A stretch of DNA of 64,000 nucleotides. It comes from a virus. Below, one piece after another: positions 47,980-64,000 of this stretch; the first letter of the stretch is position 1; every line of letters begins with the position of its first letter. The position numbers were made by a program, and so were the translations under genes. Where the stretch lies: the IMG/VR virus record IMGVR_UViG_3300035092_000015, positions 1 through 64,000 of that record. One strand, given 5' to 3'. The notes below the pieces were generated by a model, which saw nothing but the letters and a program-made list of their open reading frames with translations, searched no databases and was not told where the DNA came from.

Positions 47980-48320
47980 CCGGCAAGATCCCAGAGAGCG
48001 TCTTCATCGACGCCAACCGGGCCCGCAACAGCGAAGTGCACGGGCTGAACAACGGCGGGCTCGAGCGTCTGATCGTCATCGGCGCCCGCGAACGCGGATT
48101 CCGCGCCGCCGTCGCCGCCGCCTACCGCGCCGGCCAGGCCAGTACAATAGACCCATGCACCCACACGTGTGGAACCCCCGGCTGCACCCCCGCGACCGGA
48201 TCGGCCAGTTCACCGACACACCCGGCAGCGGGTCGTGGCTCTCCCGGGCTGCCGAGCAGGCCCGGCGCGGGTTCACCGACGCCGAGCTTGCACAGCGCGA
48301 GCAGGACGTCAACGACCTGA
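47976..48320 (+). CDS. hypothetical protein with long overlap into the kinase gene
   Basis: 114 residues as an open frame, but only the first 55 look protein-like (MTGKIPESVFIDANRARNSE, LERLIVIGARERGFRAAVAA). The rest overlaps the kinase gene by 166 bases and reads as Pro/Ser/Thr shadow. Either a true overlapping gene or one whose stop was lost. Confidence 0.45.
   Translation: MTGKIPESVFIDANRARNSEVHGLNNGGLERLIVIGARERGFRAAVAAAYRAGQASTIDPCTHTCGTPGCTPATGSASSPTHPAAGRGSPGLPSRPGAGSPTPSLHSASRTSTT
48143..48148 (+). promoter_or_regulatory. -10 box directly before the tagged kinase gene, leaderless
   Basis: TACAAT ends six bases before ATG 48155, the same spacing as other leaderless starts here. No convincing -35. 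A separate promoter would let the kinase be made apart from the upstream operon. Confidence 0.4.
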
Positions 48321-49072
48321 TCGCCGGGAGCCGCCATCTGGACACCCACCGGGTGCACAAACCGAACGGACGCTGGTCCGACGAACGGGCCGCCGCTCAC
48401 CGGGAGATCTTGGACAGGGTGTGGGCGGAGAAAGCCACCCGGGTGCCGAACGAACACCGGGCGGTGATGACCGGCGGGTTGATGGGCGCCGGAAAGACCA
48501 CCGTCCTAGCCGGACACCCCGAGATCGACATGTCCGACTACCTGATGGTGTCGGCCGACGACATGAAAGAGGAGATCATCCGCCACGGTCTGGTCCCGCG
48601 CATCCCGGGCGCCGAACACCTGTCGCCGATGGAGCTGTCGGCGATGTACCACGTCGAATCGGCCTACCTGGCGGACGCACTGGCCGAACGCGCCTACGCC
48701 GAAGGGAAGAACGTGATCCTGGATGCGTCGATGGGCGACCGGACTGCCCCGGCGGCGCGGCTGGCGCGGCTGCGCGACATGGGCTACCAGGTCCGGGGGG
48801 TGTTCGTCGACATCCCGGTCGAGACGAGCCTGCAACGGGCGTCGGCCCGGTACCGGTCGGGGATGCAGCAGTGGGGCAGCGGTACCGGCCCGGGCGGGCG
48901 GACGATCCCTCCGGCGTTGATCGAGGGGCAACGCGGCCCGGGTGGGATGACGAAGAACCGGGTGGTGTTCGACCAGCTGCGCGAGGAGGGGTTGTTCGGG
49001 GCGGGGTGGGAGGTACACGACAACACCGGGTCGGCGCCGGTGCTGTTGAAGCGCGGAGGAATACAGACGTGA
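48155..49072 (+). CDS. tagged zeta-toxin-like P-loop kinase
   Basis: 305 residues in two parts. Residues 5-30 carry the phage tag (NPRLHPRDRIGQFTDTPGSG, then SWLSRAAEQ). Residues 100-290 are a zeta-toxin-like kinase: AVMTGGLMGAGKTTVLAGHP (Walker A, 107-115), YLMVSADDMKEEIIRHGLVP, HVESAYLADALAERAYAEGK then NVILDASMGDR, and a lid region with conserved arginines (LQRASARYRSG). Zeta kinases phosphorylate UDP-GlcNAc or other small molecules; the substrate is not readable here. Sharing the tag with virion-gene products suggests the kinase is carried in the particle. Confidence 0.8.
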   Translation: MHPHVWNPRLHPRDRIGQFTDTPGSGSWLSRAAEQARRGFTDAELAQREQDVNDLIAGSRHLDTHRVHKPNGRWSDERAAAHREILDRVWAEKATRVPNEHRAVMTGGLMGAGKTTVLAGHPEIDMSDYLMVSADDMKEEIIRHGLVPRIPGAEHLSPMELSAMYHVESAYLADALAERAYAEGKNVILDASMGDRTAPAARLARLRDMGYQVRGVFVDIPVETSLQRASARYRSGMQQWGSGTGPGGRTIPPALIEGQRGPGGMTKNRVVFDQLREEGLFGAGWEVHDNTGSAPVLLKRGGIQT

Positions 49073-49105
49073 CACGGAGCGTTGCACTTAGAGGAGGAGT
49101 GTCGC

Positions 49106-49372
49106 ATGGGCAGCAGCAGGACGGTGCAGCAACTGGTGGACGATCTCGCATCTGGCAGGATCAACCTGGATCTGGCGGTGAGGGATTTTGGGACCCGCCG
49201 TTGGCCCGGCCCGGCGCCGGAGACCGCGCAGCAGCGGCACGGGGTGCACGACGCGGACCTGCCCGACCCGAACAGTATCGATTGGGTGCAGGTGAGCCCC
49301 GGGCTGTCAGACGAGCAGCGTCGCGCGTTGCTGCGCGTGTACGACCAGCGTACGTCCCGCTCTGGGCGTTGA
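49106..49372 (+). CDS. hypothetical protein
   Basis: 88 residues from ATG 49106, chosen over 49082 because GAGGAGGAG lies eight bases upstream. RTVQQLVDDLASGRINLDLA is helical; the C-terminus LSDEQRRALLRVYDQRTSRS is too. Its place after the tagged kinase makes an antidote role conceivable, but nothing else supports it. Confidence 0.55.
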   Translation: MGSSRTVQQLVDDLASGRINLDLAVRDFGTRRWPGPAPETAQQRHGVHDADLPDPNSIDWVQVSPGLSDEQRRALLRVYDQRTSRSGR

Positions 49373-49611
49373 TCGCGGTCCGCGAGCTGTGTTTCGCGGT
49401 GATGGTCGCGGCGTGTGGGTGGTTGGCGGTGTATGCGGTCTGGCCGTGGTCGCCGTTGCCGGCGCTGCTGGTGTTGTGGTTGGGGACGCAGGTGGTGCCG
49501 TGGTTCCGGCGGCTGTCCCACCCCCGCCGCCCCCGGGTTGCACCCGAGGTGTCACCTGTGGTACAATGGTGGGGTAAGGGACAACTACAGAGAGGACCCT
49601 GCAATGAGTGA
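49369..49611 (+). CDS. possible membrane protein
   Basis: 80 residues from TTG 49369 with two hydrophobic stretches (LCFAVMVAACGWLAVYAVWP and LPALLVLWLGTQVVPWF). The 3' part runs through the promoter at 49538 and into the next gene, which weakens the call. Confidence 0.4.
   Translation: MIAVRELCFAVMVAACGWLAVYAVWPWSPLPALLVLWLGTQVVPWFRRLSHPRRPRVAPEVSPVVQWWGKGQLQRGPCNE
49538..49567 (+). promoter_or_regulatory. promoter with GGTGTCACC operator core
   Basis: TTGCAC, 18-base spacer containing GAGGTGTCACCTGTG, TACAAT (49562-49567). Nearly identical to the promoter at 50140. Serves the 49604 gene. Confidence 0.8.
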
Positions 49612-49903
49612 GAGCCAGGGCTACAGCGCCCCCGACGCCACCTCGCCCGAGTACCGGGCAGGCTGGGCCGCCGAGAGCGCCAGCCAGGCAACGACTCTGG
49701 TCGGAGAGGATCTGGACGACGATGAGCTGGGCATGTTCGCCAGCCGGCTGCTGGGATGGCTGCGCAGTCAGCCGGACGTGATCAGCGCCGAGATCGTGAT
49801 GGACACCGGCAAGGACGACCGCAAGACCAGCGCCGACATCATCCTCGGGGTGGATGTCGCCGCGATCGGCGGAGTCAGCATGACGATGAACATCACCCCG
49901 TGA
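49604..49903 (+). CDS. hypothetical acidic protein
   Basis: 99 residues: MSESQGYSAPDATSPEYRAG, a helix with an acidic run (LVGEDLDDDELGMFASRLLG), then strands (VISAEIVMDTGKDDRKTSAD). It forms a one-gene unit with its own promoter and terminator, so is likely strongly expressed. Unknown. Confidence 0.65.
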   Translation: MSESQGYSAPDATSPEYRAGWAAESASQATTLVGEDLDDDELGMFASRLLGWLRSQPDVISAEIVMDTGKDDRKTSADIILGVDVAAIGGVSMTMNITP

Positions 49904-49925
49904 CCTTGTTCCCTCTCTGATGGGC

Positions 49926-49967
49926 CCGGCCCCCCGGCGCGACGACGCCCGGGGGGCCGGTGCTTTT
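49926..49967 (+). terminator. rho-independent terminator
   Basis: 12-bp stem, 49926-49937 with 49949-49960, followed by TGCTTTT. The best textbook terminator of the window; it lies just before the tRNA gene. Confidence 0.85.
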
Positions 49968-49970
49968 CTC

Positions 49971-50041
49971 GGCTGCTTAGCTCAACGGCAGAGCAGGCGT
50001 CTCTAACACGCCGGTTGCGGGTCCGACTCCCGCCGCAGCCT
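49971..50041 (+). tRNA. tRNA with anticodon CTA (amber suppressor candidate)
   Basis: Cloverleaf by eye: acceptor GGCTGCT (49971-49977) with CGCAGCC (50034-50040), seventh pair mismatched; D-stem GCTC/GAGC with GG in the loop; anticodon stem GGCGT/ACGCC with loop CTCTAAC, anticodon CTA at 50003-50005; four-base variable loop; T-stem GCGGG/CCCGC. T33 and A37 are as expected. The anticodon reads UAG. No CCA is encoded and discriminator T is unusual. The loop recalls tRNA-Trp (CCA), but the charged amino acid is unknown. It is the only tRNA I found, between a terminator and the structural region. Confidence 0.8.
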
Positions 50042-50139
50042 CGCACCGCGCGTGGCCCGGACAGCCGGGTAACGCGGCGGGTCAGGGCGCCGGGCTGGCT
50101 GGGCGCCTTGTCGACTTGGCCCGCCGGGGCCACGAGCGG

Positions 50140-50169
50140 TTGCACGCGAGGTGTCACCTGTGATATAAT
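50140..50169 (+). promoter_or_regulatory. promoter with perfect TATAAT and GGTGTCACC core
   Basis: TTGCAC, 18-base spacer with GAGGTGTCACCTGTG, TATAAT (50164-50169). Sister of the 49538 promoter; 16 of the 18 spacer bases match. Drives the 50229 gene. Confidence 0.82.
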
Positions 50170-50228
50170 GGAGGTGCCCGGCCGGACGTCGGTCGGGCGG
50201 GTTGGCAACTCCAGAGAGGGAGAACAGG

Positions 50229-50633
50229 ATGTCTGTGACAGTGGGCGCAGGAGCCACCGAACAGGGCCGCGACTGGAAGATCATCCAGGGTGACCGGCCG
50301 CAGAGTGGCGCCTACGACAACCACGTCTGGCAGGAGTTCGCCGGGCTGGCCATCGAGGTGGGCGGCTACAGCGACCTGACTGCCATCGACCCCTACAGCG
50401 GGCGCAGGTTCTGGCTGGGCGACGCCTACCGGTGCAACACGCACACGGCGATGCTGAAAGCCGCCAAGCCCGGCGAGGAGGCTCTCGCGGTCTACCAGGC
50501 GTCACACGAGTGCGGCGACTGCGGCGGCACGATGATCGCCGCGATCCGCCGGCTGTTGGACGCGATGGAGGCCGTCGGGTTCCCCGGCGAGCCGGCCGAC
50601 GAGCCCCGCAGGGCGAACGTGGCCAGCGCCTGA
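50229..50633 (+). CDS. hypothetical protein with CxxC
   Basis: 134 residues from ATG 50229 after AGAGAGGGAG. MSVTVGAGATEQGRDWKIIQ, LTAIDPYSGRRFWLGDAYRC and SHECGDCGGTMIAAIRRLLD. The zinc-type CGDC pair and isolated promoter/terminator unit resemble the 49604 unit. Unknown. Confidence 0.65.
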   Translation: MSVTVGAGATEQGRDWKIIQGDRPQSGAYDNHVWQEFAGLAIEVGGYSDLTAIDPYSGRRFWLGDAYRCNTHTAMLKAAKPGEEALAVYQASHECGDCGGTMIAAIRRLLDAMEAVGFPGEPADEPRRANVASA

Positions 50634-50644
50634 CCAACCCAACA

Positions 50645-50676
50645 CGACGCCCCCCAGGGCAACCTGGGGGGCGTCG
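50645..50676. terminator. bidirectional terminator between convergent genes
   Basis: Perfect 14-bp stem, 50645-50658 with 50663-50676, GCAA loop. It lies between the rightward gene ending at 50633 and the leftward gene ending at 50679. Confidence 0.82.
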
Positions 50677-50678
50677 CC

Positions 50679-50825
50679 CTATCCGGGGATGTGTTCGATC
50701 AGCACCGCGACCACAAACGCACAGAACCCGCCCCAACCCAGCCGCTCCGGGATCAACCCGAACGCAGCCAGCCCCGACAGGACCAACGCCAACAGCAGGA
50801 ACAGCAAAACCAACACGGTTGCCAT
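50679..50825 (-). CDS. 48-residue two-span membrane protein
   Basis: Reverse-strand frame from ATG 50825 to TAG 50679: MATVLVLLFLLLALVLSGLA then AFGLIPERLGWGGFCAFVVA then VLIEHIPG. Two clear membrane spans joined by a short loop. The convergent terminator right after its stop supports expression. The only leftward gene found right of 34 kb. Unknown. Confidence 0.6.
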   Translation of the reverse strand: MATVLVLLFLLLALVLSGLAAFGLIPERLGWGGFCAFVVAVLIEHIPG

Positions 50826-50910: not shown

Positions 50911-51447
50911 ATGACCAAACCCGCCGAAGGTAAACGGCTAAGCGGCAACCCCGTCGGGATCCGGGTCAGCCCCAACAAAGACAGCCTCATCGCCCGCCGG
51001 ATCCGCGCGGTTGAACTGCGCGTCCAAGGCATGACCCTCAACCAGGTCTCCCAGGCCACCGGCGTCAACCCACGGACCGTCCGGATCGACATCGACACGG
51101 TGTTGCGCGAGCGGGACGCGGAGACCATCCCGAAGCTGCGCGCGCTGGAAGAGGAACGGCTCGACCTGGCCGTCCGGACCGCGACCGCGATCATCGAAGC
51201 CCACCCCGGGACTGAACTGGCGTTGAAGGCCGTCGACCGGTTGATCCGGGCATCGGCCCGCCGCGCCGGGCTGCTCGGGTTGGACGCCCCGGTGGAGTTG
51301 AACATCCGCAGCACCGAGGTGACCCAGGCAGACCTCGAGTTGGACGAGCTGATCCGGGAGGCGCAGGCACGTAACGCGAACACCCGGGAACAGCTGATCG
51401 CGCAGGCAGGCGGTGGCGGTGACGACACGGCAACCCCGGTGGCCTAA
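50911..51447 (+). CDS. HTH protein, small-terminase-subunit candidate
   Basis: 178 residues from ATG 50911. RIRAVELRVQGMTLNQVSQA then TGVNPRTVRIDIDTVLRERD is a clear HTH (about residues 30-70), followed by helices (LRALEEERLDLAVRTATAII) and a charged tail. HTH plus oligomerising helices just upstream of terL fits a small terminase subunit. The tagged ART-like gene lies between them, overlapping by 35 bases. Confidence 0.65.
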   Translation: MTKPAEGKRLSGNPVGIRVSPNKDSLIARRIRAVELRVQGMTLNQVSQATGVNPRTVRIDIDTVLRERDAETIPKLRALEEERLDLAVRTATAIIEAHPGTELALKAVDRLIRASARRAGLLGLDAPVELNIRSTEVTQADLELDELIREAQARNANTREQLIAQAGGGGDDTATPVA

Positions 51448-51943
51448 GGGTACGCCGTGGCAGCGGCAGGGACCTGGCCCGGGACGTTGGGCTGAGCAGC
51501 TGTCGGCGCAGCTGCCCGGCCACGTCGAAGAGCCTGACTACCGGGGGGTGCACCAACCACCCGACCCCCGTGGCGCCGACACCGTGATGCGGCTGGACGA
51601 CCTCGAAGCTGACATGCCCGACGTGTACGAACACCCCGAATACTACCTGTCCAGAGAAACCGAGGGCTGGCGGGAAGCAGTCCGCGCGATGCGCGCCGTC
51701 CGGGGCCGACCCGACGCTACGATCACAATCTACCGGGCCGCACCGCCCGAGGCGGGGGCGATCAACCCCGGCGACTGGGTCAGCACCAGCCGGGCCTACG
51801 CCGCGACCCACGGTAGACACGCCCACGACCCCGCCCAGGACTGGCCGGTCATCTCGATGCAGGTTCCGGTCAGGGACGTGTACTGGGGCGGGAACGACTT
51901 CACGGAGTTCGGGTACTGGCCCGGTGTTGAGGAACGGCCGTGA
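51413..51943 (+). CDS. tagged ADP-ribosyltransferase-like protein
   Basis: 176 residues from GTG 51413. Residues 6-35 are the tag in its WPxGTP form: RQPRWPKGTPWQRQGPG, then GRWAEQLSAQLPG. Residues 95-172 resemble ADP-ribosyltransferase toxins: DATITIYRAAP (Arg108, NAD-binding strand), NPGDWVSTSRAYAATHG (STS, 124-126) and YWGGNDFTEFGYW (Glu165, catalytic loop). Order and spacing are as in R-S-E class ARTs. The target is unknown. It overlaps both neighbours, placing a possible toxin inside the packaging module; the tag suggests particle delivery. Confidence 0.75.
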   Translation: MAVTTRQPRWPKGTPWQRQGPGPGRWAEQLSAQLPGHVEEPDYRGVHQPPDPRGADTVMRLDDLEADMPDVYEHPEYYLSRETEGWREAVRAMRAVRGRPDATITIYRAAPPEAGAINPGDWVSTSRAYAATHGRHAHDPAQDWPVISMQVPVRDVYWGGNDFTEFGYWPGVEERP

Positions 51944-53559
51944 CTGCCGTTCTGCCTGGGCTCGAGCTTGAGCTTGACGCCCCGCCGCTGCCCTGGATCA
52001 CCGACCCGTACCACCCCGAGGTCAACGCTGAGAACTTCGACCTGTACGGGTATCTGGCCCAGTTCGACCCCAGGCTGTTCACCCACAGCCGAGGCCGGCG
52101 TGAGATCACCCGGTACGACCCGATCCTGTTCGCGATCGTTTACTTCCCGCACCACATCCGCACCGACGGGCGGATCTCATTCGCCGACCCGCATTTCCAG
52201 TGGGCCGGCGCCGCCCGACGGTGGATCGTCCCCGCCGGGCTGAAGCAAGACCGGCACGCCTACGTCGCCCCCCGCGACACCGGCAAGTCGACCTGGTGGT
52301 TCCTGCTGCTGCCGATGTGGGCCGCCGCGCACGGGCACATCAAGTTCGCCGCCGCGTTCGCCCACTCCGGCACCCAATCCGAGACCCACCTGCACGCGTT
52401 CCGCTCGGAACTGGCCGAGAACCAACGGCTGCGGCAGGACTACCCCGACCTGTGCACCCCCGCCAGGAAGCCGAACGGGAAAACCACCGCCGACAACATC
52501 CAGATGTTGCGAACCAAGGCCAACTTTGCGTTCGCTGCGCGTGGGGTGGACGCGGCGAACCTCGGGTTGAAGGAGAAAGACACCCGCCCCGACCTGATCC
52601 TGCTGGACGACGTCGAACCGGACGAAGCCTCGTACAGCCAGTACCAGATGGAGAAACGACGCGGGACCATCATCGAGGCGATCCTGCCGATGAACCTGCG
52701 CGCCCATGTCGTGCTGGTCGGGACCGTCACCATGCCCGGCAGTATCGTCCACCAGCTGGTCGCAGTCGCGAGAGGCGACACCGAGGTCGAAGCGTGGGTC
52801 GGGGAGGAGAACTTCGCCCCGCACCACGCCCTGCCGATCTGTCTACGCGACGACGGGACCGAACGAAGCATCTGGCCCGCGAAATGGCCCCTGTCGTTCC
52901 TGATCTCGATCCGCCGGACCCGATCCTACCTGAAGAACTTCGCCAACGACCCGATGGGCACCGAGGGCGGGTATTGGACGTTGGAAGATTTCACCTACGG
53001 CGAACTGGGCAACCCGACCCGCTGGTTCCTCGCGTTGGACCCGACGATCACCACGAAAACCCGCTCCGACCCGGCCGGGGTCGCGGTCATCTCCTATGCC
53101 CCCGGCTATGTGATCCCGGCCGAGTCGCCGCGCAGGCTGCCGGCGAAGGTCCCGAGCCGGTGTCTGGTGGAGTTCGCAGCGGAGGTGAAGCTGGTCGGGG
53201 AGGGTCTGCGCCGGTACCTGTTGAAGGTCTTGCAGCGGTACCCGAGGGTCAAGGCGATCATCGTCGAAGGCAACCAGGGCGGGGAGAACTGGCACGCGAT
53301 CCTGCACGATATGCCGGTCCGGGTGGTTGTCGTGTGGTCGGAGGAGAAGAAGGAGGTCCGGGCGGCGAACCTGCTGGAGCTGTACCAACACAACCCGCCG
53401 AGGGTCCTGCACCCGGAGCCTGGGGCGGTGGTGGCGCTGGAGCAGCAGATGGCGTCTTTCCCCCGGGGCAAGGACGACATGGTGGACGCGGTCGGGTCGG
53501 TGTGTCTGCGTGTCCTGGGGAAGCCGCCGAAGAAGGGCCAGACGTTCTTCCCGGTCTGA
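51940..53559 (+). CDS. terL: terminase large subunit
   Basis: 539 residues from GTG 51940. ATPase: APRDTGKSTWW (Walker A, 110-120) and DLILLDDVEPDEA (Walker B, 218-230). Nuclease: LALDPT (Asp367), AIIVEGNQGGENW (Glu443) and FPRGKDDMVDAVG (Asp residues 512-516). Complete for a phage motor that packages and cuts DNA. The class (headful or cohesive end) cannot be read from motifs alone. Confidence 0.93.
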   Translation: MTAVLPGLELELDAPPLPWITDPYHPEVNAENFDLYGYLAQFDPRLFTHSRGRREITRYDPILFAIVYFPHHIRTDGRISFADPHFQWAGAARRWIVPAGLKQDRHAYVAPRDTGKSTWWFLLLPMWAAAHGHIKFAAAFAHSGTQSETHLHAFRSELAENQRLRQDYPDLCTPARKPNGKTTADNIQMLRTKANFAFAARGVDAANLGLKEKDTRPDLILLDDVEPDEASYSQYQMEKRRGTIIEAILPMNLRAHVVLVGTVTMPGSIVHQLVAVARGDTEVEAWVGEENFAPHHALPICLRDDGTERSIWPAKWPLSFLISIRRTRSYLKNFANDPMGTEGGYWTLEDFTYGELGNPTRWFLALDPTITTKTRSDPAGVAVISYAPGYVIPAESPRRLPAKVPSRCLVEFAAEVKLVGEGLRRYLLKVLQRYPRVKAIIVEGNQGGENWHAILHDMPVRVVVVWSEEKKEVRAANLLELYQHNPPRVLHPEPGAVVALEQQMASFPRGKDDMVDAVGSVCLRVLGKPPKKGQTFFPV

Positions 53560-53594: not shown

Positions 53595-55604
53595 TTGACC
53601 AGAGCGCTCACCCCGGCCCACGCCGCCCAGCTGCAGGTCGGAACCATGACCACCGCCGGCTACGGCACCCCCGCCCTGGTCAACCCCGGCAACCCGGTGG
53701 AGATCACAGTCACCCCCGACAGCGACGGCGACGGACAGCACCTCGATACTGGCGCCACCGGGCTGTTGATGCGCAGCCTCGCCGAACTGGACGCCGCCCG
53801 CCCCGAATACGCCCTAGCGGACGAGATGTACGACGGGACCGTCGAAGAACTGCACGTATCCGACGCCATCGCCCGGCTGCTGGCACAATCCGGCGTGAAC
53901 AACATCGAAAACCTGAACTACGCGAAAGTCCCAGTCGACACCATCGCCGAGAAGCTGCAGATCCGCGCGATCACAGTCTCTGCCGGCGACCTGGCCGAGG
54001 ACGACAGCCACGACCCCGACCGGGAGATCGGCGAAGCCGACCGCGACATCGAAGACGACCCTGAGGTCGACGAGCAGAAAGAAATCAGCAGTCACGCGCA
54101 GGAGCTGCTGGACGAGATCCGCAAACGCAACCAGCTCGACGCGGAAGAACCCGAGCTGATGAAAACCTGCTCCCGCTACGGCGAAGGCTACCTGTTCGTC
54201 TGGCCGGTGGTGGCCGACCCGGAAGGCTACGAAGAAGCCTCACCGCTCGAGCCGGACCAACCCGCCCGGATCGTCGGGGTTGACATGTTCGTCAACAGCC
54301 CGTACACCACCCGGGCGTACTACGACGCGGAGAACCCGCTGCGGATGACCCACGTCCTGAAATCGTGGGAGTGGTACGACGAGGCCAACGACGCCGACCG
54401 GCTCCGCGCCACCCTGTACTTCCCCGACCGGATCGAACGTTGGGTGGTCAAGCTGCAGGGCGACCAGGCCCGCCGCGAAGACTGGGAGCACTACGTCGAG
54501 GGCGACGAGCAGTGGCCGTTGGACAACCCGACCGGCGAGATCCCGTTCTTCCACCTGCGCAACGCCCGCCCCTACGGCGTGCCCGAACACCGGGCAGCGT
54601 ACGGGCCGCAACGGTTGATCAACAAACTGGTCAGCACCCACGCGGCGACGATCGACTTCCAGGGCTGGCCGCAGCGGTACTTCCTGATCGACCCTAAAGC
54701 CGACGACCCGATGATGAACCTGCTCGACCCGGACAACCCCGAGGACGATGGGGACGACCCGGAAGGCAGCGGACGCAGCCCGTTCCGGGCCGACCCGGCA
54801 GCGGTGTGGAAGATGTTCGCCAGCGCGGTCGGGCAGTTCCAGGCCGCCGACCCGCAAGTGTTCATGGCGCCGCTGGACCGGTACATCAAGTCGATCTCCG
54901 AACTGTGCGGGATCCCGCTGGACCGGTTCGTCGGGTATTCGACCCCGCCGTCGGGGGAGTCGCGGAAGGCCGCGAACGAACCGCTGTACGAGAAGGCCGG
55001 GTCGCGGCAGGACTCGTACGGGCCGGTGATGGAGGACGCGTACGAGTTCGCGCTGCAGCTGCTGGGTGTGACCGATGTGACGGTCGACGTGAAATGGAAG
55101 CCGCTGCAGGTCGCGGTTGGGCTCGAGGATTGGAACATCATCCAGGCGAAGATCGGCAACGGTGTCCCGGTCCGGCAGGCGTTGATCGAAGCCGGCTACC
55201 CGGAGGACGAGGTCGACATCTGGCTGGTGGATGAGACCGGCGCGGACCTGGTCCGGCGGGTGGCGTTGTTGAACTCGATCGGGACCGCGATCCAGGCGAT
55301 GTCGGCCGGTGTCGCGGTCGGGATGGTCTCTCCGGAGCAGGCCGGCGACATCATCGCCCGGATCATTGGGGCGGTTGGGGAGAACCTGCCGCGTCTGGCG
55401 AAGCCGGTCGCGTTGCATCCGCAGATGCAGCAGATGGCGGACCAGATGCAGAAGGACGCCCGGGGTCAGCAGGTGGCTGAGCATATCGCGTCCGCGCCGC
55501 CGCAGCCGCAGTTCGACCCGGAGGGTAAGCCTATCCCGCCGCCGCCTGACCGGCCGTTGCCGCCGATGCCGCCCCCGCCGCCGCCAGTAAGGGTCGGACG
55601 ATGA
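53595..55604 (+). CDS. portal protein
   Basis: 669 residues; TTG 53595 has GAGAGGGGG upstream, and ATG 53646 is an alternative. Features of SPP1/HK97-type portals: an N-terminal half with LAELDAARPEYALADEMYDG and NYAKVPVDTIAEKLQIRAIT, a long crown/stem region with GIPLDRFVGYSTPPSGESRK, and a Pro-rich C-terminus. Directly follows terL. Forms the dodecameric DNA gate of the head. Confidence 0.9.
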   Translation: MTRALTPAHAAQLQVGTMTTAGYGTPALVNPGNPVEITVTPDSDGDGQHLDTGATGLLMRSLAELDAARPEYALADEMYDGTVEELHVSDAIARLLAQSGVNNIENLNYAKVPVDTIAEKLQIRAITVSAGDLAEDDSHDPDREIGEADRDIEDDPEVDEQKEISSHAQELLDEIRKRNQLDAEEPELMKTCSRYGEGYLFVWPVVADPEGYEEASPLEPDQPARIVGVDMFVNSPYTTRAYYDAENPLRMTHVLKSWEWYDEANDADRLRATLYFPDRIERWVVKLQGDQARREDWEHYVEGDEQWPLDNPTGEIPFFHLRNARPYGVPEHRAAYGPQRLINKLVSTHAATIDFQGWPQRYFLIDPKADDPMMNLLDPDNPEDDGDDPEGSGRSPFRADPAAVWKMFASAVGQFQAADPQVFMAPLDRYIKSISELCGIPLDRFVGYSTPPSGESRKAANEPLYEKAGSRQDSYGPVMEDAYEFALQLLGVTDVTVDVKWKPLQVAVGLEDWNIIQAKIGNGVPVRQALIEAGYPEDEVDIWLVDETGADLVRRVALLNSIGTAIQAMSAGVAVGMVSPEQAGDIIARIIGAVGENLPRLAKPVALHPQMQQMADQMQKDARGQQVAEHIASAPPQPQFDPEGKPIPPPPDRPLPPMPPPPPPVRVGR

Positions 55605-56074
55605 CCTGGGGACCAAGCGACGAGCAGAAACACCCTCGCGACCGGGCTGGGCGGTGGGCCGAGAAGCTGTCCGATCTGATCGGCCAGCGCCGTTACCGTG
55701 GCATGCTCGCTGACTTGGCGGCGATGTCCGCAGACACCCCGGAGCACCGACAACAGGGGGCGGCGGCCCGCCGGGAGACGGCTGAGTGGTTGCGTGGTCT
55801 TCTGTCCGACCCGGAGTCCGGGCACGCTACGATCCCGGTCGGTGTTGGTGTCCTGCTCGACTTGGCTGACGTGATCGCGGGTGGGGAGTGGCAGGTCGCC
55901 CCGGCGTGGGGGTCGGGTGAGCCGGGCGGGGTGATCCGCCGGGTGTACACCGGCGGGCCGGGCGCCGGGTCGCTGCGGATTGAGACCGACGGGGGGAATC
56001 TGGATTTCCCGATCCCCGAGCCGTGGTCACGGGGCGAAGAGATCCGCATCCAACGCGCCTTCCGTCGGGGGTGA
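55601..56074 (+). CDS. tagged virion-protein candidate
   Basis: 157 residues, ATGA-coupled to the portal gene. Residues 2-30 hold the best tag copy: TWGPSDEQKHPRDRAGRWAE then KLSDLIGQ. The middle is helical; the last 60 residues are beta-rich (GGVIRRVYTGGPGAGSLRIE). No enzyme motif. First of the tagged run after the portal. Confidence 0.65.
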   Translation: MTWGPSDEQKHPRDRAGRWAEKLSDLIGQRRYRGMLADLAAMSADTPEHRQQGAAARRETAEWLRGLLSDPESGHATIPVGVGVLLDLADVIAGGEWQVAPAWGSGEPGGVIRRVYTGGPGAGSLRIETDGGNLDFPIPEPWSRGEEIRIQRAFRRG

Positions 56075-56077: not shown

Positions 56078-56923
56078 GTGACGTGGGGACCGGAGGAGGA
56101 GCGGGCACACCCGCGCGACGCTGAAGGCCGTTGGACTGACCGGCTCGATGCCCGGCTGCGTCGGCTGCCGGATTTTCCGGCCGATGGGACGCGGATGCAA
56201 GCATCCGAGATGGCGTACCGTAAACGCTGGCTGGACGAACACGGTCGGTACAGCGGGCTGGAGATCTGGCACCCGAACCAGGGCACTTGGGCGGACGCAG
56301 CCGACGCCTTCCCAAAGGGCCGCTCCTACGGGCCAGCTGACGAGGACGACCCGATGAAGGGTATCAAGCTGGACGACCCGTACGGGATCGGGATGGAGGC
56401 GCATTGGACCCCCTCCGCTCCGATCCACGTCCGCAGGAAACTCGAGCCGGTCCGCCGGGTCGACCAGACGCGGGAGAAACCCAACCCGAGGATGGAGTAC
56501 CTGCACGAGGAGACCGGCGTGTGGGTGCCAGGGGCTAGGCTTGACGTTGACCCTGACACGGGGATGTGGGATGCGTTCGGCAGCCCGTTCGGCTCGGGGA
56601 AGGTTGCCGAACGGCCGCACTACCCGCCGACGAACTTCGACAAGCAGACCGTCGCCTACGGGTTCACCCCGGAGGATCACGCGTTCAACGGGATGATCCG
56701 AACCATCCACCTGCAGGACGTGGTCGACCAGCCGTCTTACCTGCAGGGCGGGTACCAGATGCTCGGGCAGGACGGGCAGTGGCACACCCTGGAAGAGGCG
56801 TACCAGGTCTATCCGGAGCTTGAAGACTCGGATCTGTTCGAGTTGATCGCGGGGGATCTGCATTTCCCGGAGATCGAAGCGTCGTCGGAGTTGACGGTCC
56901 GCCGCACCCCGATGGACTACTGA
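56078..56923 (+). CDS. tagged protein with repeated beta modules
   Basis: 281 residues from GTG 56078. Tag: TWGPEEERAHPRDAEGRWTD then RLDARL. The body has repeated beta modules, each around a G-x-W turn (ETGVWVPGARLDVDPDTGMW). The C-terminal 65 residues (GGYQMLGQDGQWHTLEEAYQ, FELIAGDLHFPEIEASSELT) match the end of the 59584 protein. Possibly a capsid decoration or internal protein. Confidence 0.65.
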   Translation: MTWGPEEERAHPRDAEGRWTDRLDARLRRLPDFPADGTRMQASEMAYRKRWLDEHGRYSGLEIWHPNQGTWADAADAFPKGRSYGPADEDDPMKGIKLDDPYGIGMEAHWTPSAPIHVRRKLEPVRRVDQTREKPNPRMEYLHEETGVWVPGARLDVDPDTGMWDAFGSPFGSGKVAERPHYPPTNFDKQTVAYGFTPEDHAFNGMIRTIHLQDVVDQPSYLQGGYQMLGQDGQWHTLEEAYQVYPELEDSDLFELIAGDLHFPEIEASSELTVRRTPMDY

Positions 56924-57108: not shown

Positions 57109-57120
57109 GGAGAGATGGCG

Positions 57121-57969
57121 ATGCGCCGTTGGAACGAGAAGGACCACCCCCGCAACCCCGAGGACGGTAGGTTCCGGGACAAGATCGGCGGCGGCGGGTG
57201 GGCGCGGCGTATCTCCGACGCGATCGGGCGACGCCGAGGCGAGCGTGACCAACGCCGCGAAGACGCCCAGTACGAACGCGACCGGCGCGAACACATGCGC
57301 ACCCACCCTGGCGCGACTGCCCGGCAGGCGGCGATCCATGCGTCGATGCAGCAGTCGTTCCGCCGGGAGGAGCAGGCCAGGGCGGCGGGCGACACCGCGC
57401 GGGCGGACAAGCTGAAGGCCCAGGGGTTCGATTTCATGCAGTCGTACCACCAGCCTGACCCGGGTGGGCCGTCGCGGCTGTCCCGGATGGAGGACGGCAC
57501 CGGTTCGCGTGACCCCAGGCAGGTCGGTGGGCGTCCGATCGAGATCAACGGCCAGACGGTCGGGTACGAATCGACCGGGCCTGGGATCCGGGGCGTCAAC
57601 CAGGACGAGGAGGGGCTGCCCCGGGGTCGGCTCGAGCGGGAGTTCGCCGATGTGGTTAAGGCCGACGAGGCCGCCCACGTCGGGGCGTTGAACGAGTCGA
57701 AACACCAGATCATCACAACCTACGTCGATGACCTGTTCGAGGTCGCGGAGGACATCCAGAACGGGGTCTTCCAGCATGATTTCGAGGAGGACCCGGATCT
57801 GGAGGATCTGGTGAATGCGATGGCGGATGTGGTGATGGACCGGCCGGACAACTGGGGGGCGATGCAGTCGGCGGCGGAGCGGCTGCGCAAGTACATCATC
57901 CGCAGCGGCTATGCGAATGTGGCGAAGCTGCCGCGACGCCCGCCGGAGTCGACCTGGAGGAGGGACTAG
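57121..57969 (+). CDS. tagged protein, amber stop in frame with the next tagged gene
   Basis: 282 residues from ATG 57121, preferred over ATG 57115 because AAGGAGAG ends too close to the latter. Tag: RRWNEKDHPRNPEDGRFRDK then WARRISDAIGRRRGE. A long charged helical stretch (RDQRREDAQYERDRREHMRT) and acidic helical C-terminal half follow. The stop is TAG; after one sense codon (TTC) the next tagged gene begins in the same frame. Confidence 0.65.
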   Translation: MRRWNEKDHPRNPEDGRFRDKIGGGGWARRISDAIGRRRGERDQRREDAQYERDRREHMRTHPGATARQAAIHASMQQSFRREEQARAAGDTARADKLKAQGFDFMQSYHQPDPGGPSRLSRMEDGTGSRDPRQVGGRPIEINGQTVGYESTGPGIRGVNQDEEGLPRGRLEREFADVVKADEAAHVGALNESKHQIITTYVDDLFEVAEDIQNGVFQHDFEEDPDLEDLVNAMADVVMDRPDNWGAMQSAAERLRKYIIRSGYANVAKLPRRPPESTWRRD

Positions 57970-57972: not shown

Positions 57973-58350
57973 GTGTCGTGGGGCCCGGACGACGAGCGCA
58001 ACCATCCACGCGACCCTGCGGGGCGGTGGGCGGAGAAACTGTCTGCCAGGATGATCCATCCGTTCGACGATTTGGACTACCCGGAACCCCGCCCACATGG
58101 GAACCGGTCGTTTGCTGGGGCGAAGATGGTCCCGGTGTCGGCGATGTTGCAACGGCTGGAGCTGTGGAGTGGGCAGGTCGATGTGTACGACCAGCGCAGC
58201 GACCGGTGGGTGAACCTGGGCGAGGTCCGGCCGGGCCGGGGTACCGACCGGGTGCAGTTTCGGGGCCGGGGTCCGGGTCCGGCGTTGTTCTCCCGGAATC
58301 GGACGGATAGCGTGATTGTCCGGAGGGCTACCGGACAAGCAGGGGCGTGA
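57973..58350 (+). CDS. tagged protein
   Basis: 125 residues from GTG 57973, with GGAGGAGGG nine bases upstream. Tag: SWGPDDERNHPRDPAGRWAE then KLSARM. The rest is one beta module (LELWSGQVDVYDQRSDRWVN, VIVRRA). Same frame as the preceding gene with one amber codon between, so suppression would yield a fused protein with an internal tag. Confidence 0.65.
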   Translation: MSWGPDDERNHPRDPAGRWAEKLSARMIHPFDDLDYPEPRPHGNRSFAGAKMVPVSAMLQRLELWSGQVDVYDQRSDRWVNLGEVRPGRGTDRVQFRGRGPGPALFSRNRTDSVIVRRATGQAGA

Positions 58351-58585: not shown

Positions 58586-59587
58586 GTGAGCCGCTGGAAC
58601 GAACGCGAACACCCCCGATGGCCCGCCGGTACACCAACCTCCGGGAACATCGGGGGTGGCCGGTTCGCCGGAGCACCCCGACCCGGTGTCCCATCGTCGG
58701 GCGGACACGCGTGGGCCGACCAACTGTCCGGGCAGATCGGACGGCGGATGCTCGACCTGGGCCGCGACCGAGGCGACGGCACCCGGACCGTCACCACCGA
58801 GCAGATGCTCGCCGCCCGCGCCTCGATCCGCCCCGGGATGTACGACTACCAGGACCGGTGGACCGGCGAGTGGCGTCCGCTGCACGGGGTTGACCCGCAC
58901 GGGGTCGCCGCAGCGCACGGGATGGCGCTGTCCAGCAGCCCAACCTCCGCACAGATCTACTGGGATCGGGTCCGGATCAAACCAGCCGGCCAGCCGGTCC
59001 AACCCCATGCCGAACCGACCCCCCGGATCGGCATCCCGCAGGGCGACGGGACCTACCTGATCACCGGGCAGGAGCTTGCCCAACACGGCGCCGAGCTTGA
59101 AGGCCGGATCGACTACATCCCGCGAGGGGGCGCCGGGGACTCGCGGCTCGAGCCGCGCGAGGTGGTGTTCATAGAGCCCGGCAAAGGCAGCGGGGTGTTC
59201 TTGGGCCAGTTCGGGTCCACCAGCCTGCTGCGCGGCGACAGCGAGGTGCTGATCAGCTACCACGGCGAACCGACCGACGACCAGCAGTTCTTCGAGATGC
59301 GGATGGCCACCGGGCTCGAGAGTGACGAGGACCCGGAGGATCTGTTCACCCACGACCGGCGTTACATCGGCAACATCGAGGTGCAGGACCCGCAGACCGG
59401 CCAGTGGGGTGTGTACCGGGGCGGGGAGTACGAGGAGGACGAGCTGACCGGGCAGGACGTGATCCACATCTGGGTCGGGGAGCCCGGCGGCGAGTCGAAG
59501 ATCGTCCTGCCGGACAACCCTCGTGGCGGGTATGGGCGGATCCGGATCCGGCCGATCTCTGGGCAGGCCGGGGGGGGTCCGCGATGA
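58586..59587 (+). CDS. tagged protein, WPxGTP tag form
   Basis: 333 residues from GTG 58586 after CAGGAG. Tag: RWNEREHPRWPAGTPTSGN then GGGRFAG and WADQLSGQIGRRM. It joins the HPRD form and the WPxGTP form of the tag. Body: beta modules with G-x-W turns (WTGEWRPLHGVDPHG, DPQTGQWGVYRGGEYEEDEL). It overlaps the next start by four bases. Confidence 0.65.
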   Translation: MSRWNEREHPRWPAGTPTSGNIGGGRFAGAPRPGVPSSGGHAWADQLSGQIGRRMLDLGRDRGDGTRTVTTEQMLAARASIRPGMYDYQDRWTGEWRPLHGVDPHGVAAAHGMALSSSPTSAQIYWDRVRIKPAGQPVQPHAEPTPRIGIPQGDGTYLITGQELAQHGAELEGRIDYIPRGGAGDSRLEPREVVFIEPGKGSGVFLGQFGSTSLLRGDSEVLISYHGEPTDDQQFFEMRMATGLESDEDPEDLFTHDRRYIGNIEVQDPQTGQWGVYRGGEYEEDELTGQDVIHIWVGEPGGESKIVLPDNPRGGYGRIRIRPISGQAGGGPR

Positions 59588-60456
59588 AGTGGGACGAGCG
59601 GAAACACCCCCGCGACCCGCGCGATGGGCAGTTCACCGAGTCGTGGGCCACGGCTATCTCCGACCGGATCGCCGGGGCGGTCGGCAGAGCAACGTCCAGC
59701 CCGAACCTGCCCCGGCTGCAGCCCGGCGGCGGGCTGCCCGCTGACACCCCTGCCGACGGGCGGGTCGACAAGATCGACGACCTGGTCGACGCTACCGCCC
59801 ACCTGGACGAAGGCGAGGGGTTCGGCAGGTTCGACGGCATCGAGTTCTACGTGGGAGATGTCGGCTGGGTCAACGCCGACGAGGCACGGGTGTTGCGCCT
59901 CGGCCTTGACGAGGCCCATCGCTCCCACATCATCCACCTGGACAACTCGGAGATGACCATCCCTGGCGGGCTGGGTGGCGCGGTCGACGTGAGTCTCGAG
60001 GGCAAAGTCCGGTGGCGCCACGCCGACATCCGGCCGGTGGACACCAGCCAACCGCCGAACCCCGGCTGGGAATACCTGGTCGACTTTTACGACGAGTCGG
60101 AGTGGATCGACGCCCCGCAGATCGATGCGGTCGATGGGGAGTGGGTGTACGACGCGGAGATCCTGACCGCTGTCCTCGGGGGCCGGCCGATGATCGACCC
60201 GCCCGAGATGGAAGGTCTGCACACCCACCCGCAGAAGACCACCGTCGGCGCCCGGTTGTTGGACGACCTGCCCGCCTGGACCGGCGGCGGGTACCAGATC
60301 TACAACCCCGACACCGGGACCTGGCACACGATCGAAGAGATCTACCAGGACGACCCGGATGAGGAGGAGATCGAACTGATCGCCGACGGGTACCACCTGC
60401 CGCACCTGGACACTTCGGACGAGATCGTCGTCCGTCCGATACCCGTAGGGGACTGA
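59584..60456 (+). CDS. tagged protein, paralogue of the 56078 protein
   Basis: 290 residues from ATG 59584 (ATGA overlap). Tag: KWDERKHPRDPRDGQFTES then WATAISDRIAGAVG. Beta modules follow; the end, GGGYQIYNPDTGTWHTIEEI, ELIADGYHLP and IVVRPIPVGD, parallels the 56078 protein. Acidic overall. Confidence 0.65.
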   Translation: MKWDERKHPRDPRDGQFTESWATAISDRIAGAVGRATSSPNLPRLQPGGGLPADTPADGRVDKIDDLVDATAHLDEGEGFGRFDGIEFYVGDVGWVNADEARVLRLGLDEAHRSHIIHLDNSEMTIPGGLGGAVDVSLEGKVRWRHADIRPVDTSQPPNPGWEYLVDFYDESEWIDAPQIDAVDGEWVYDAEILTAVLGGRPMIDPPEMEGLHTHPQKTTVGARLLDDLPAWTGGGYQIYNPDTGTWHTIEEIYQDDPDEEEIELIADGYHLPHLDTSDEIVVRPIPVGD

Positions 60457-60458: not shown

Positions 60459-61205
60459 ATGGCCCGCGATTGGCGTGAACAGGACCACCCACGCAACCCA
60501 GCCGACGGCCAGTTCGTCGACAAGGCCGGCGCCGGACGGTGGGCCAGCCGAATCTCCGACGCGATCGGGCAGATGCGAGGCGAGCCCGGCCGCAGCCGCC
60601 GCCAGCGCACAGCCGGTGCCGCCAACGCTGACCCCGCCCCGGGTGAAGTCCGGGCAGCGCTGCACGGGCTGGTGCGCGACTCGGACCTGGCAGCCCTGAA
60701 CGACGACATGATCCGGGAGGCGATCGAGCAGGCCAAAGTGGATGTCGGAACGAACCCGCTGCGGGGCGGGATGACGTTCGATCGGTTTGTCGTGGACCAG
60801 ATGCAGCAGTACCTGTCCAATCAACACCCGGACGAGATCTGGCCGCATCTGGCGGAGGTCACCGCCCGCCGCGAGGCTGTGCTCGAGGCGTTCAACCCTG
60901 AGGCGGCGTTCCGCAGCAAATACGCCGCGCTGCTGACCGAACTGGTCCCCGGCATCAGCCAAGCCAGCATCGACGACGCCGCCCAGGACCACCTCAAGTA
61001 CGCCAGGGCGGGGCTGCAAGCCCCGATCACTGATGAAGATCTGGACTGGGGTCTCGCCTCCTACATCTCGCTGCTGGACGGCGACTCGATCATGAACGTC
61101 TACGACGCGCTGATGGAGTTGCAACAGCGGACCGGCCGGAGCTTCCCGAACACGATCGACGCCATCGACGAGATGGGGCTGCTCGACGACGAGGAGGATT
61201 ACTGA
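60459..61205 (+). CDS. tagged helical protein
   Basis: 248 residues. Tag: RDWREQDHPRNPADGQFVDK then WASRISDAIGQMRGEPG. Unlike its neighbours the rest is almost all helical (MIREAIEQAKVDVGTNPLRG, LLTELVPGISQASIDDAAQD). The tag is thus fused to unrelated bodies. One-base overlap with the next gene. Confidence 0.65.
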   Translation: MARDWREQDHPRNPADGQFVDKAGAGRWASRISDAIGQMRGEPGRSRRQRTAGAANADPAPGEVRAALHGLVRDSDLAALNDDMIREAIEQAKVDVGTNPLRGGMTFDRFVVDQMQQYLSNQHPDEIWPHLAEVTARREAVLEAFNPEAAFRSKYAALLTELVPGISQASIDDAAQDHLKYARAGLQAPITDEDLDWGLASYISLLDGDSIMNVYDALMELQQRTGRSFPNTIDAIDEMGLLDDEEDY

Positions 61206-61429
61206 TGGTGTACAAGGCGAACAAGACCTTCCGACGCCAGGTAGGCCGGGGCGTCCGGGCGTTGGGCCGCGCCATCGCCGCCGGGATCCGGCTGACCCGG
61301 CAGAAACGGCTCCAACGGATCCGCACCGGCGAACTGCAAGGATCGGTCCCGCGCCGGCACAGCCGCGCCCGGGGCCGTGTCACAGCCACCCGCCACGGGA
61401 TCCGCACCGCCCGCCGCAAACGCCGCTAG
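61205..61429 (+). CDS. small Arg-rich protein 3 of the tagged cluster
   Basis: 74 residues, about one third Arg or Lys: NKTFRRQVGRGVRALGRAIA and PRRHSRARGRVTATRHGIRT then ARRKRR. Protamine-like; probably binds DNA or acidic proteins within the head. It ends in TAG, one of two amber stops in the right-hand structural region. Confidence 0.65.
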   Translation: MVYKANKTFRRQVGRGVRALGRAIAAGIRLTRQKRLQRIRTGELQGSVPRRHSRARGRVTATRHGIRTARRKRR

Positions 61430-61437
61430 GAGTCGAG

Positions 61438-64000
61438 ATGGCACGACGCCGGTACGGGATGCACCCCGGGGATGACGACCAACCCCGCTGGCCCGAAGGC
61501 ACCCCGGTCCGCCCGGATGGGCACGGGCCGGGTGGTGGGCGTTTCCGTGGCACCGGCGATGTCGGCGGGGCTGATGTTGGCGACCTCGTGTCCGGGCTGC
61601 AGGGGGCGTCTAGCCGGCCGTGGTACGAGACCGCAGCGGGGCAGATCGCGCAACAGCGCGGCGGTGGGCACCCGAGGGTGGCGTACAACCTGGCTGTGAT
61701 CAACGCCGCCCAGGCGCAGTACAACGAGAACCGGGGCGACGGGTTCCACGACGAACAGCTGCCGCAGCTGATCGGGCAGTACAACGTCGCGGAGGCGCAG
61801 GGCAACCCGGCTGGGCAGGATGTCGCGGTCGACCAACTCCGGTTGTGGATCGACTCGCATTACCCGGAGCAGTGGGCTGGTGCTCTGCCGGCGCGGGTGG
61901 AGGCCAGGGAGGCGCCTCGGGCGGCGGACCAGGACCAACGTAACAGCGCTGCCTTGGATCTGGCCCGGACAGCCCAGGCGAATATCGAGGTGAACACCGG
62001 CGACCCGGATGATGCTCTGGCGATCCGGATCGAAGCACTCGAGCGGCACCTCGGGCGGACTGGGCATCGGGTGGAGGCGGATCGGGAGGCAGCTGCTCTG
62101 CGCCGATATATGGACCACGAGATGGACCAGGAGGCGGCGTCGCCGCCGGGCACTGCGGTGATGCATGCCCGGCTCGAGGCGTCTCGACCGTCGGGCGAGG
62201 GTCAAGAGCTACGGGCGAGCGAGATCGCTCTGCAGTACATGTCGGGCAGGCCGCTCGAGTTGAACCTGCTCGACGGGCGCGGCTGGGGCCGGATCACCGA
62301 TTACAGTGAAGAGAGCGGCGGGACCGAGCACCGGTTCGAGCTACAGTACGAAGACGGCGGCGGCGACGAGATCTTCATGGGGTCGACCGATCGGTTGATC
62401 GCCCGACGTGTACCCGGCAGCCTCCCCGATCAGGCCCAGCAGCCGGAGATGGACCACGACCGGAACCTGCGACTGGTCAACGCGATGGAAACCCCCGAAG
62501 GTGGCGAGGTCACCGCTGCTGAACTGCTTGAGCTGGTCGGCAACGGGCACCGGCTGGAGGTCCTGGGCCGGCACGGGTGGGATCGAGTTGAGACGGTCGA
62601 CGTTTCCGGCGAGGGCGACCATTTCATCTACTTGGAGAACGACCCGGAGCCGATCTCGATGTCGCCGGAGGGTCGGGTGGCGATCCGATTCCCCCAGACA
62701 CCCGAGCCGGCCACGGCCAGTACCGGTCTCAGTCTCGGCGGGAACCCTCTCACCGATCGCGACGCGTGGAACCGGCTCGTCGTACACCTGGCCCGCCAGC
62801 ACAACGACAACCGCGCACGCGACGGGCTGGGCCGCGACGAGGTCATGGACCAGATGGTCGCCGACATCGAACACCCCGACGTCACCGACGTGCAGGGGGT
62901 GGCGGACAGCAACGCGGAGGTCCTGCGGCAACGGCTGGAGCGGATGTACCGGGCATCGATCATCGACCCACCAACCCGCCGCGCCGAGCCGCAGTTCACC
63001 ATCCCCGAGACTGGGGTCATCTCCGCCGCCGAGGACGTGAACCGCGTCCGCCGGGTGACGGGCCAGGCGGAGGACGCCCACCTCGCCGATATGCTGCGGG
63101 TGGTGCGGGGTGAACTCCCGGGCGACCCTCACGGCATGGTGGCGGCGATGCGGCAGCGGCTGCAGCAGATCCACGGCGTGACCGTTCCTGGCGGCGACGA
63201 TCTGGAGGCCCTGAACGACCGCGACCTGCGCGACCTCGGCATCGAATACGACATCGCCGTCCCCGCACCGCCGCTGGCCCCCGACTACCGCGCCGACCTG
63301 ATCGCCCGCATCCGCTACCGGCAACAGGCCGACGCCAACCGTGGAGTCTCACGGGCTGCCGCCCATAGCAACGTCAACTGGGCCGACACCCACATCAGCC
63401 ACCAACGCCCCAGGTTCTACCGCCAAGCGGTCGACGACTACCAGATGCCGTTGCAGATCCGCGACGCGCAGGGCCAATGGCGCACCGTCACCTCGATCGG
63501 CTACCCCACCAACGGGCAGTACGAGATCACCCACGACGGACCAACCGGCCACACGTTCGTCCCTGAGAACCACACGATCACCGCCCGGTTCGGGTCGGAC
63601 CGCAGTGGCACCACGAACCAGGACCGGCAGCGGTTCAACCAGCAGGTCGCGGTGGTCGCCGAGTCGATGCTCGAACAGGTGGCTCCGGAGGACCGGGCGG
63701 ACGACGAAGGCTACACCCGGCTGCGCGCCGCACTCGACAGCTACAACGACACCACCTCCAACCCGAACGACCAGGAGTCGATCGACTCGGCGGTGGACGA
63801 TTTGGTGAACGAACTGGCCGACTGGGATATCTACTTCGACGTCCCGCCGTACCAGGACTACGACAGCGGCGGGCCCAGCTACCTGCCGCCGAGCCGGTAC
63901 AACGGCGGGGTCTACACCGGGGACGACGAAGAAGACGACTACTACGACCAGCCGGCAATCCCCGAGATCTACGGCAACACGCTCGCCGCCGCGATAAGCC
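61438..64000 (+). CDS. very large tagged protein (3' end beyond window)
   Basis: Open from ATG 61438 to the window edge, at least 854 residues. Tag in WPxGTP form near residues 11-45: DDDQPRWPEGTPVRPDG then GPGGGRFRGTGDVGG. The body mixes helices with beta modules like those of the other tagged proteins (RHGWDRVETVDVSGEGD; AQGWRTVTSIGYPTNGQ-like GQWRTV near 680). The visible end is very acidic and Tyr-rich (GDDEEDDYYDQPAIPE). It could be a large ejected protein or a protease/MuF-type head protein whose key domain lies beyond the window. Confidence 0.7.
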   Translation, partial: MARRRYGMHPGDDDQPRWPEGTPVRPDGHGPGGGRFRGTGDVGGADVGDLVSGLQGASSRPWYETAAGQIAQQRGGGHPRVAYNLAVINAAQAQYNENRGDGFHDEQLPQLIGQYNVAEAQGNPAGQDVAVDQLRLWIDSHYPEQWAGALPARVEAREAPRAADQDQRNSAALDLARTAQANIEVNTGDPDDALAIRIEALERHLGRTGHRVEADREAAALRRYMDHEMDQEAASPPGTAVMHARLEASRPSGEGQELRASEIALQYMSGRPLELNLLDGRGWGRITDYSEESGGTEHRFELQYEDGGGDEIFMGSTDRLIARRVPGSLPDQAQQPEMDHDRNLRLVNAMETPEGGEVTAAELLELVGNGHRLEVLGRHGWDRVETVDVSGEGDHFIYLENDPEPISMSPEGRVAIRFPQTPEPATASTGLSLGGNPLTDRDAWNRLVVHLARQHNDNRARDGLGRDEVMDQMVADIEHPDVTDVQGVADSNAEVLRQRLERMYRASIIDPPTRRAEPQFTIPETGVISAAEDVNRVRRVTGQAEDAHLADMLRVVRGELPGDPHGMVAAMRQRLQQIHGVTVPGGDDLEALNDRDLRDLGIEYDIAVPAPPLAPDYRADLIARIRYRQQADANRGVSRAAAHSNVNWADTHISHQRPRFYRQAVDDYQMPLQIRDAQGQWRTVTSIGYPTNGQYEITHDGPTGHTFVPENHTITARFGSDRSGTTNQDRQRFNQQVAVVAESMLEQVAPEDRADDEGYTRLRAALDSYNDTTSNPNDQESIDSAVDDLVNELADWDIYFDVPPYQDYDSGGPSYLPPSRYNGGVYTGDDEEDDYYDQPAIPEIYGNTLAAAIS

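Follow-up and report, generated by a model that had tools for sequence, protein, structure and literature searches.

A short peptide tag on otherwise different proteins beside tailed-phage portals is a probable label for head cargo

In phage T4, ten residues from the N-terminus are enough to direct a foreign protein into the head, and the ADP-ribosyltransferase (ART) Alt is among the cargo carried there (PMC9026906). Passages of PMC9503650 and PMC5512222 present effectors fused to MuF or portal proteins as thought to be packaged in the head and injected. Here we describe a short peptide, the tag, that opens at least 15 genes in the record of one soil phage and recurs in other tailed viruses. 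The record (IMG/VR IMGVR_UViG_3300035092_000015) is 80,875 bases long, and the window that we analysed is its first 64,000 bases. Ten of the tagged genes, named here by their start positions, lie in the window and five lie beyond its end (66202, 67116, 67895, 69923, and 70687, in the record's remainder, L004), all on the plus strand and clustered around the terminase, portal, MuF-like, scaffold, and capsid genes (Table 1). An original prediction had seen in the ten window genes a shared N-terminus on unrelated proteins and proposed it as a head-packaging and ejection signal.

The ten tagged N-termini are present at the predicted starts once two of these are adjusted: position 57115 is the more likely start of gene 57121, and for gene 61438 that start is favoured over 61459 by a Shine-Dalgarno-like sequence. 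The tag takes two forms, W-x-x-x-HPR[D/N]-x-x-G-[RQ]-[WF] (form 1) and QPRWPxGTP-...-GG-R-[FW] (form 2), with mixtures of the two in 58586 and 70687; the predicted PRWPxGTP...GGRF variant and the mixed nature of 58586 are thus both real. The HPR or QPR core lies 6-14 residues after the start in all ten window genes and 2-9 residues after it in the five genes beyond. A strict regular expression for the tag has 12 matches when the record is translated in six frames (mean over 200 shuffles, 0.075), and all 12 are on the plus strand, each opening one of the fifteen tagged genes. A low-complexity artefact was rejected, as all fetched loci together (a set partly chosen by the tag) gave 240 real matches and 0-1 shuffled ones. 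When tag copies are compared in pairs, the codons for proline and arginine differ in over half of the cases, and recent DNA duplication alone therefore does not account for the likeness of the copies. A second element that had been proposed to follow the tag, W-A-x-x-[LI]-S-x-x-[IL]-G, holds up in about nine of the 15 proteins and looks specific to this phage group.

The proteins behind the tag were expected to be unrelated, which holds for about eight groups but not for three paralogous kinases and three beta-module proteins. The kinases (66202, 67116, and 67895) are HipA/PI3K-like paralogues (E 5e-18 to 9e-6) with a DRxxxN catalytic loop followed by an IDH metal-binding motif; the D-R-x-x-x-N-W and I-D-H columns are invariant, and the Pfam PI3_PI4_kinase match lies under the cut-off. 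A C-terminal beta module is common to 56078, 59584, and 69923 (E 4e-12 to 7e-5). In the kinase family two members carry form 1 and the third form 2, and likewise in the beta-module family, so the two forms appear interchangeable. The two enzymes named in the original prediction were borne out: the P-loop kinase at 48155 is of the zeta type, and 51413 has, in addition to its PHROG match, the R-S-E catalytic motif of ARTs (R108, S-T-S, E165), whose motif stretches YRAAP, WVSTS, and FTEFGYW are mostly retained in three relatives. For the ART and a beta-module protein AlphaFold2 gave poor models (mean predicted local distance difference test, pLDDT, of 54 and 52, with about 27-44 over the tag), the fold model of 51413 being too weak to confirm its assignment, and Foldseek with these low-confidence models gave no match below 0.001. 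Gene 70687 has an HEFGH motif and a weak zincin family match (0.03) and is a possible metallopeptidase. The product of 61438 (1080 aa) has no confident domain, the remaining window proteins look single-domain, and the remaining tagged bodies have no confident assignment. None of the record's tagged proteins matched a MuF or portal domain in Pfam and PHROG profile searches.

We compared the record with three IMG/VR records whose portals are 96-98% identical to its own. Orthologues of 57121 and 60459 keep tags that are 79-95% identical on bodies that are only 32-55% identical, except for 57121 in L005. Over 23 comparisons the mean identity is 0.89 for the tag and 0.69 for the body, with two of the body values lowered by contig ends. 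The tagged ART between the terminase genes is missing from L005 and L007. Between terminase and portal, L005 instead has two reading frames not present in this record: a tagged GNAT-like gene and a second frame that opens with a WDPARHPRWPADAPEHRGGQF tag and holds an HEWGH metallopeptidase-like motif. The terminase and portal genes that flank these gains and losses are 94-98% identical between relatives. Tagged genes thus come and go within a near-identical backbone and behave as exchangeable cassettes.

The tag is not confined to this phage group. A DNA pattern encoding HPRDxxGRF occurs in at least 120 IMG/VR stretches, giving the wider consensus [WF]-x-[EP]-x-[LK]-HPRD-x-x-G-R-[FW] together with the PRWPxGTP...GGRF variant. 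Among the matches listed, the residues conserved outside the fixed letters of the pattern are W/F at -5, E/P at -3, and L/K at -1. Among 11 N-terminal and 19 internal copies of a non-redundant set, W/F near -5 occurs in 9 and 18, respectively (background 4% per position), and E/P at -3 in 9 and 15 (background 13% per position). The IMG/VR tags stand at N-termini, directly behind MuF or portal domains (L020, L028, and L062), or between successive domains of polyproteins (L053 and L065). Of 24 tags with the same frame read upstream, MuF precedes three and portal one. The predicted N-terminal position therefore describes the starts of the fifteen genes but leaves out equally conserved internal copies, and since these follow portal or MuF domains or separate cargo domains, a purely N-terminal leader does not explain the tag.

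The sequences following the tag include ART, ART-PolyVal, zeta toxin, NUDIX, PI3/4-kinase, PBECR2, CdiA-C tRNase, and DarB-like domains; the cargo in other phages is of enzyme types for which head packaging and injection are known or predicted. Genes within two of a tagged gene belong to portal, terminase, major head, head-morphogenesis, and maturation protein families. At least seven portal PHROGs are found among 79 neighbours in the non-redundant set, where about one portal per 60-100 genes is expected; the counts are per family and may overlap, and serve as qualitative evidence of enrichment. Form 2 also occurs outside this phage group, for example as FDESKHPRWPKGTPAGKGGKF in L229, but PRWPxGTP matches in IMG/VR are mostly chance: about 15 of the 120 matches listed have tag context, including ones missed by an automatic G[GNQ][RQKE][FWY] filter. 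In 84,980 bacterial and archaeal species genomes the W-form DNA pattern has only nine stretches, with surroundings that include portal, terminase, MuF, LPD3, and PBECR1/polyvalent-protein families, which gives no sign that the tag is a catalytic or DNA-binding domain common outside phages. We also observed six exact tag matches in one 25.6-kb contig (L065 and L073, IMGVR_UViG_3300035693_000027), whose polyprotein, by eye, has several tags between ParB-like and ART-like domains.

Tag consensus peptides were also compared by tblastn with 50,697 phage records, a search in which E-values are weak as the query is short. Matches were found in Gordonia phages (GodonK gp67 and the Boopy/Forza/Sixama group, Boopy gp78), Streptomyces phage Gilgamesh (gp48), the archaeal tailed virus HHTV-1 (gp13), Pseudomonas phage Orimi01 (gp4), the portal of Faecalibacterium phage FP_Brigit, a portal-family (HI1409) protein of a Helicobacter prophage, and Rhizobium phage RHph_N28_2. 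Every in-frame match whose surroundings were read lies in a portal, portal-family, or MuF gene or in the next few genes. As had been predicted for actinophages, tag-bearing proteins with varied cargo are found beside portals, and this extends beyond actinophages. In Orimi01, FP_Brigit, and the Helicobacter prophage the tag lies within a portal extension ahead of a further domain, which in Orimi01 appears ART-like on inspection. In RHph_N28_2 (L137:7158-7679) the tag precedes, in the same frame, the annotated start of the gene after the portal; the start given for EVB88_010 (7320) probably lies too far downstream, the frame opening at 7158 with the tag. The body of this protein resembles, by eye, a PBECR-type nuclease. 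A match to the virion RNA polymerase of Achromobacter phage Axy12 is on the antisense strand and was set aside as chance, and the QPRDxxGKF and PRWPKGTPGG consensus peptides gave no tblastn matches in annotated phages. Very large proteins of L107, L046, L077, L082, and L134 share WNPALHPRDSKGRFIETGG and then a conserved VRLWGGKLARVVRAL segment; proteins of this type reach more than 4,000 residues, as in Gilgamesh gp48.

We consider it probable that the tag acts as a portable linear peptide by which a whole protein, or one domain of a larger one, is designated as cargo for the virus head. A docking label is the simplest reading because the tag travels with cargo and accompanies portal and MuF proteins, because fused effectors are thought to be injected, and because T4 provides a precedent. 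In the scheme that we infer, tagged proteins would be produced late, along with portal, MuF, scaffold, and capsid proteins, and the tag (aromatic-x-E/P-x-x-HPR-x-x-G-R-F/W), in a probably disordered stretch followed by a flexible linker or short helix, would dock the cargo on a procapsid component near the portal, most likely the portal, MuF, or scaffold protein. DNA would then be packed around the cargo, which would exit with the DNA and act on the host as a kinase, ART, nuclease, peptidase, and so on. In some phages tag and cargo are instead fused straight to the portal or MuF protein. The original prediction thus stands as to a short sequence on varied cargo beside portals in unrelated tailed phages, while packaging and ejection themselves are suggested by analogy.

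Several points weigh against a head-cargo label. We found no virion proteomics for any tagged protein, and the matches listed from the pattern scan are not random samples. In KimJongPhill, Lizz, MiniFlayer, and OscarSo, whose portals are related, the stretches read encode no tagged protein, and heads can therefore be assembled without the tag. Additionally, tags on cargo fused to portal or MuF proteins are conserved as well as N-terminal ones, and there a docking signal looks redundant; their retention on already fused cargo allows for a role later than assembly, at release or ejection.

The internal copies also bear on an explanation that we regard as unlikely, in which the tag is a unit boundary or processing element where head polyproteins are cut or unfolded so that cargo units exit through portal and tail, the N-terminal copies marking the start of single-unit proteins. 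In its favour, internal tags separate cargo from portal or MuF domains and cargo domains from one another and match the N-terminal ones in conservation, and head maturation proteases are among the neighbours in other phages. However, no S78, S49, or ClpP-type prohead protease was found in this 80.9-kb, possibly incomplete record, a negative that covers these three types, the search for S77 (the T4 gp21 family) having had no positive control. T4-type proteases cut at glutamate-specific sites, whereas glutamate and proline alternate at -3, near the HPR core. The tag moreover starts at residue 3-10, so cutting would remove almost nothing, and the cleavage that had been suggested for it is not supported.

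It is improbable that the tag is instead an ejection leader, the first part to be threaded through portal and tail, with head recruitment brought about by other protein parts or by a fusion. Its placement beside portal sequences would suit a leader, and the low AlphaFold2 confidence over the tag is compatible with disorder; both models are poor, which makes this a weak argument for disorder, and internal tags cannot thread first. Still less probable, in our judgement, is that the tagged genes are ordinary late morons acting in the infected cell, with the tag binding some factor of host or phage that has nothing to do with the head. Intracellular action is possible for zeta-like, HipA-like, and ART enzymes, and no virion proteomics was found for the tagged proteins, but direct fusions of tag and cargo to portal and MuF proteins place them on virion head components. 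The chance is very slight that the tag is a homology patch or gene-duplication relic aiding recombination of cargo genes, its peptide having no role: there are many copies in one genome and relatives swap cargo under a conserved tag, but the peptide is conserved across differing proline and arginine codons, and it also persists in unrelated phages, in an archaeal virus, and in bacterial prophages.

Beyond the head-cargo label itself, we tentatively propose, at somewhat under even confidence, that one peptide code, [WF]-x-[EP]-x-[LK]-[HQ]-PR-...-G-[RKQ]-[FW], is a general head-cargo label of bacterial and archaeal tailed viruses, read by a conserved procapsid surface near the portal and letting phages swap injected effectors as cassettes. 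If the tag does label head cargo, a simple sequence search could list the effectors delivered by virions in thousands of phages whose cargo lacks a recognisable domain. Such a label would also provide a directly testable signal for protein loading into the heads of phages other than the T4 group, a long-standing question, and a handle for loading chosen proteins into the heads of laboratory tailed phages.

Table 1. Tags and head genes in the window and in the remainder of the record
Feature	Position	Strand	Gene and remarks
Tag form 1 (MHPHVWNPRLHPRDRIGQF)	48155..48211	+	Zeta-type P-loop kinase gene 48155-49072; Pfam Zeta_toxin 1e-14
Tag form 2 (VAVTTRQPRWPKGTPWQRQGPGPGRW)	51413..51490	+	R-S-E ADP-ribosyltransferase gene 51413-51943; phrog_2579 3e-33
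Terminase large subunit, untagged	51940..53559	+	Precedes portal as in KimJongPhill and Lizz; 94-96% identical in relatives; no Pfam match
Portal protein, untagged	53595..55604	+	phrog_104 2e-46; tblastn to Streptomyces and Microbacterium phage portals
Tag form 1 (MTWGPSDEQKHPRDRAGRW)	55601..55657	+	Gene 55601-56074; body without assigned fold
Tag form 1	56078..56134	+	Gene 56078-56923; beta module at C-terminus
Tag form 1 (HPRNPEDGRF)	57115..57174	+	Gene 57115-57969; relatives keep tag, body swapped
Tag form 1	57973..58029	+	Gene 57973-58350; possible beta module body (weak, E 0.014)
Hybrid tag (WNEREHPRWPAGTPTSGNIGGGRF)	58586..58666	+	Gene 58586-59587
Tag form 1	59584..59634	+	Gene 59584-60456; beta module at C-terminus
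Tag form 1	60459..60515	+	Gene 60459-61205; identity to relatives: tag 0.79-0.95, body 0.32-0.55
Tag form 2 (QPRWPEGTPVRPDGHGPGGGRF)	61438..61545	+	Large gene 61438-64680; extends beyond window end
MuF-like protein	68767-69831		Weak matches only: phrog_2662 1e-7, phrog_115 0.006, Pfam MuF 0.004
Scaffold	72552		Pfam 1e-11
Major capsid protein	74422		Pfam 7e-10

Two further features lie among the late genes. Positions 61205-61429, amid the tagged genes, encode a predicted protein of 74 residues that is strongly arginine-rich and recalls small basic internal head proteins. A tRNA with a CUA anticodon (49971-50042, plus strand; tRNA-Pyl by ARAGORN, Rfam tRNA at 50 bits) lies beside the late genes and is suppressor-like, its anticodon resembling that of an amber suppressor; it was not found in the examined stretches of the three close relatives, and TAG still serves as a stop in about one fifth of the predicted genes. 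At 57969-57973 gene 57115 ends in TAG with the tagged gene 57973 in the same frame, where suppression would yield a polyprotein with two tags. We dropped this read-through, since in the stretches examined the relatives keep the TAG, lose the in-frame continuation, and have no such tRNA.

The closest known system is the capsid-targeting sequence of the T4 internal proteins IPI-III, likewise a short N-terminal sequence common to otherwise divergent proteins, of which we count fifteen here. The T4 cargo consists of variable host-takeover proteins that are packaged in the head and injected, and by analogy the same may hold for the tagged proteins. The T4 sequence is removed by a protease, gp21, and no S78, S49, or ClpP-type counterpart was found in this record; the tag also stands internally and after portal or MuF domains, and it serves far more cargo families in many more phage lineages. 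We know of no recognisable pattern common to the T4 propeptides and the tag. P1 DarA and Hdf are capsid-bound, ejected anti-restriction proteins, and one tag-bearing IMG/VR sequence is DarB-like; in the P1 proteins, however, capsid binding is through folded domains, and no shared peptide tag is reported in the relevant part of PMC12810830.

MuF polymorphic toxins and fusions of effectors to portal or MuF proteins place ART, NUDIX, PBECR, and other effectors on head proteins, as described in sections of PMC5576092 and PMC9503650, which mention no shared junction peptide. There the head domain is the carrier, whereas most cargo of the window has the peptide only and no head domain; a MuF or portal domain and an effector in one polypeptide are absent from this record but present in L020, L028, L062, and Orimi01. 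Polyvalent proteins, which are large and injected, combine multiple domains such as ART, zincin, PBECR, and ParB (PMC5512222), and are similar to the multi-tag proteins of L065 and L053 and to the LPD3 and PBECR1 families near tags in prophages. They are defined by domain content, whereas most window proteins look single-domain and have the tag, not fusion, as their common link. The large product of 61438 may be of the polyvalent kind, and several tag-bearing relatives have several effector domains in one polypeptide. We found no description of the tag in the open-access literature searched, and an earlier one elsewhere is possible. Altogether, the targeting of proteins to the capsid by a short sequence is already known from T4, and what appears to be new is a sequence-unrelated, widespread, and position-flexible label, as we read it, on effectors of the polyvalent and MuF type.

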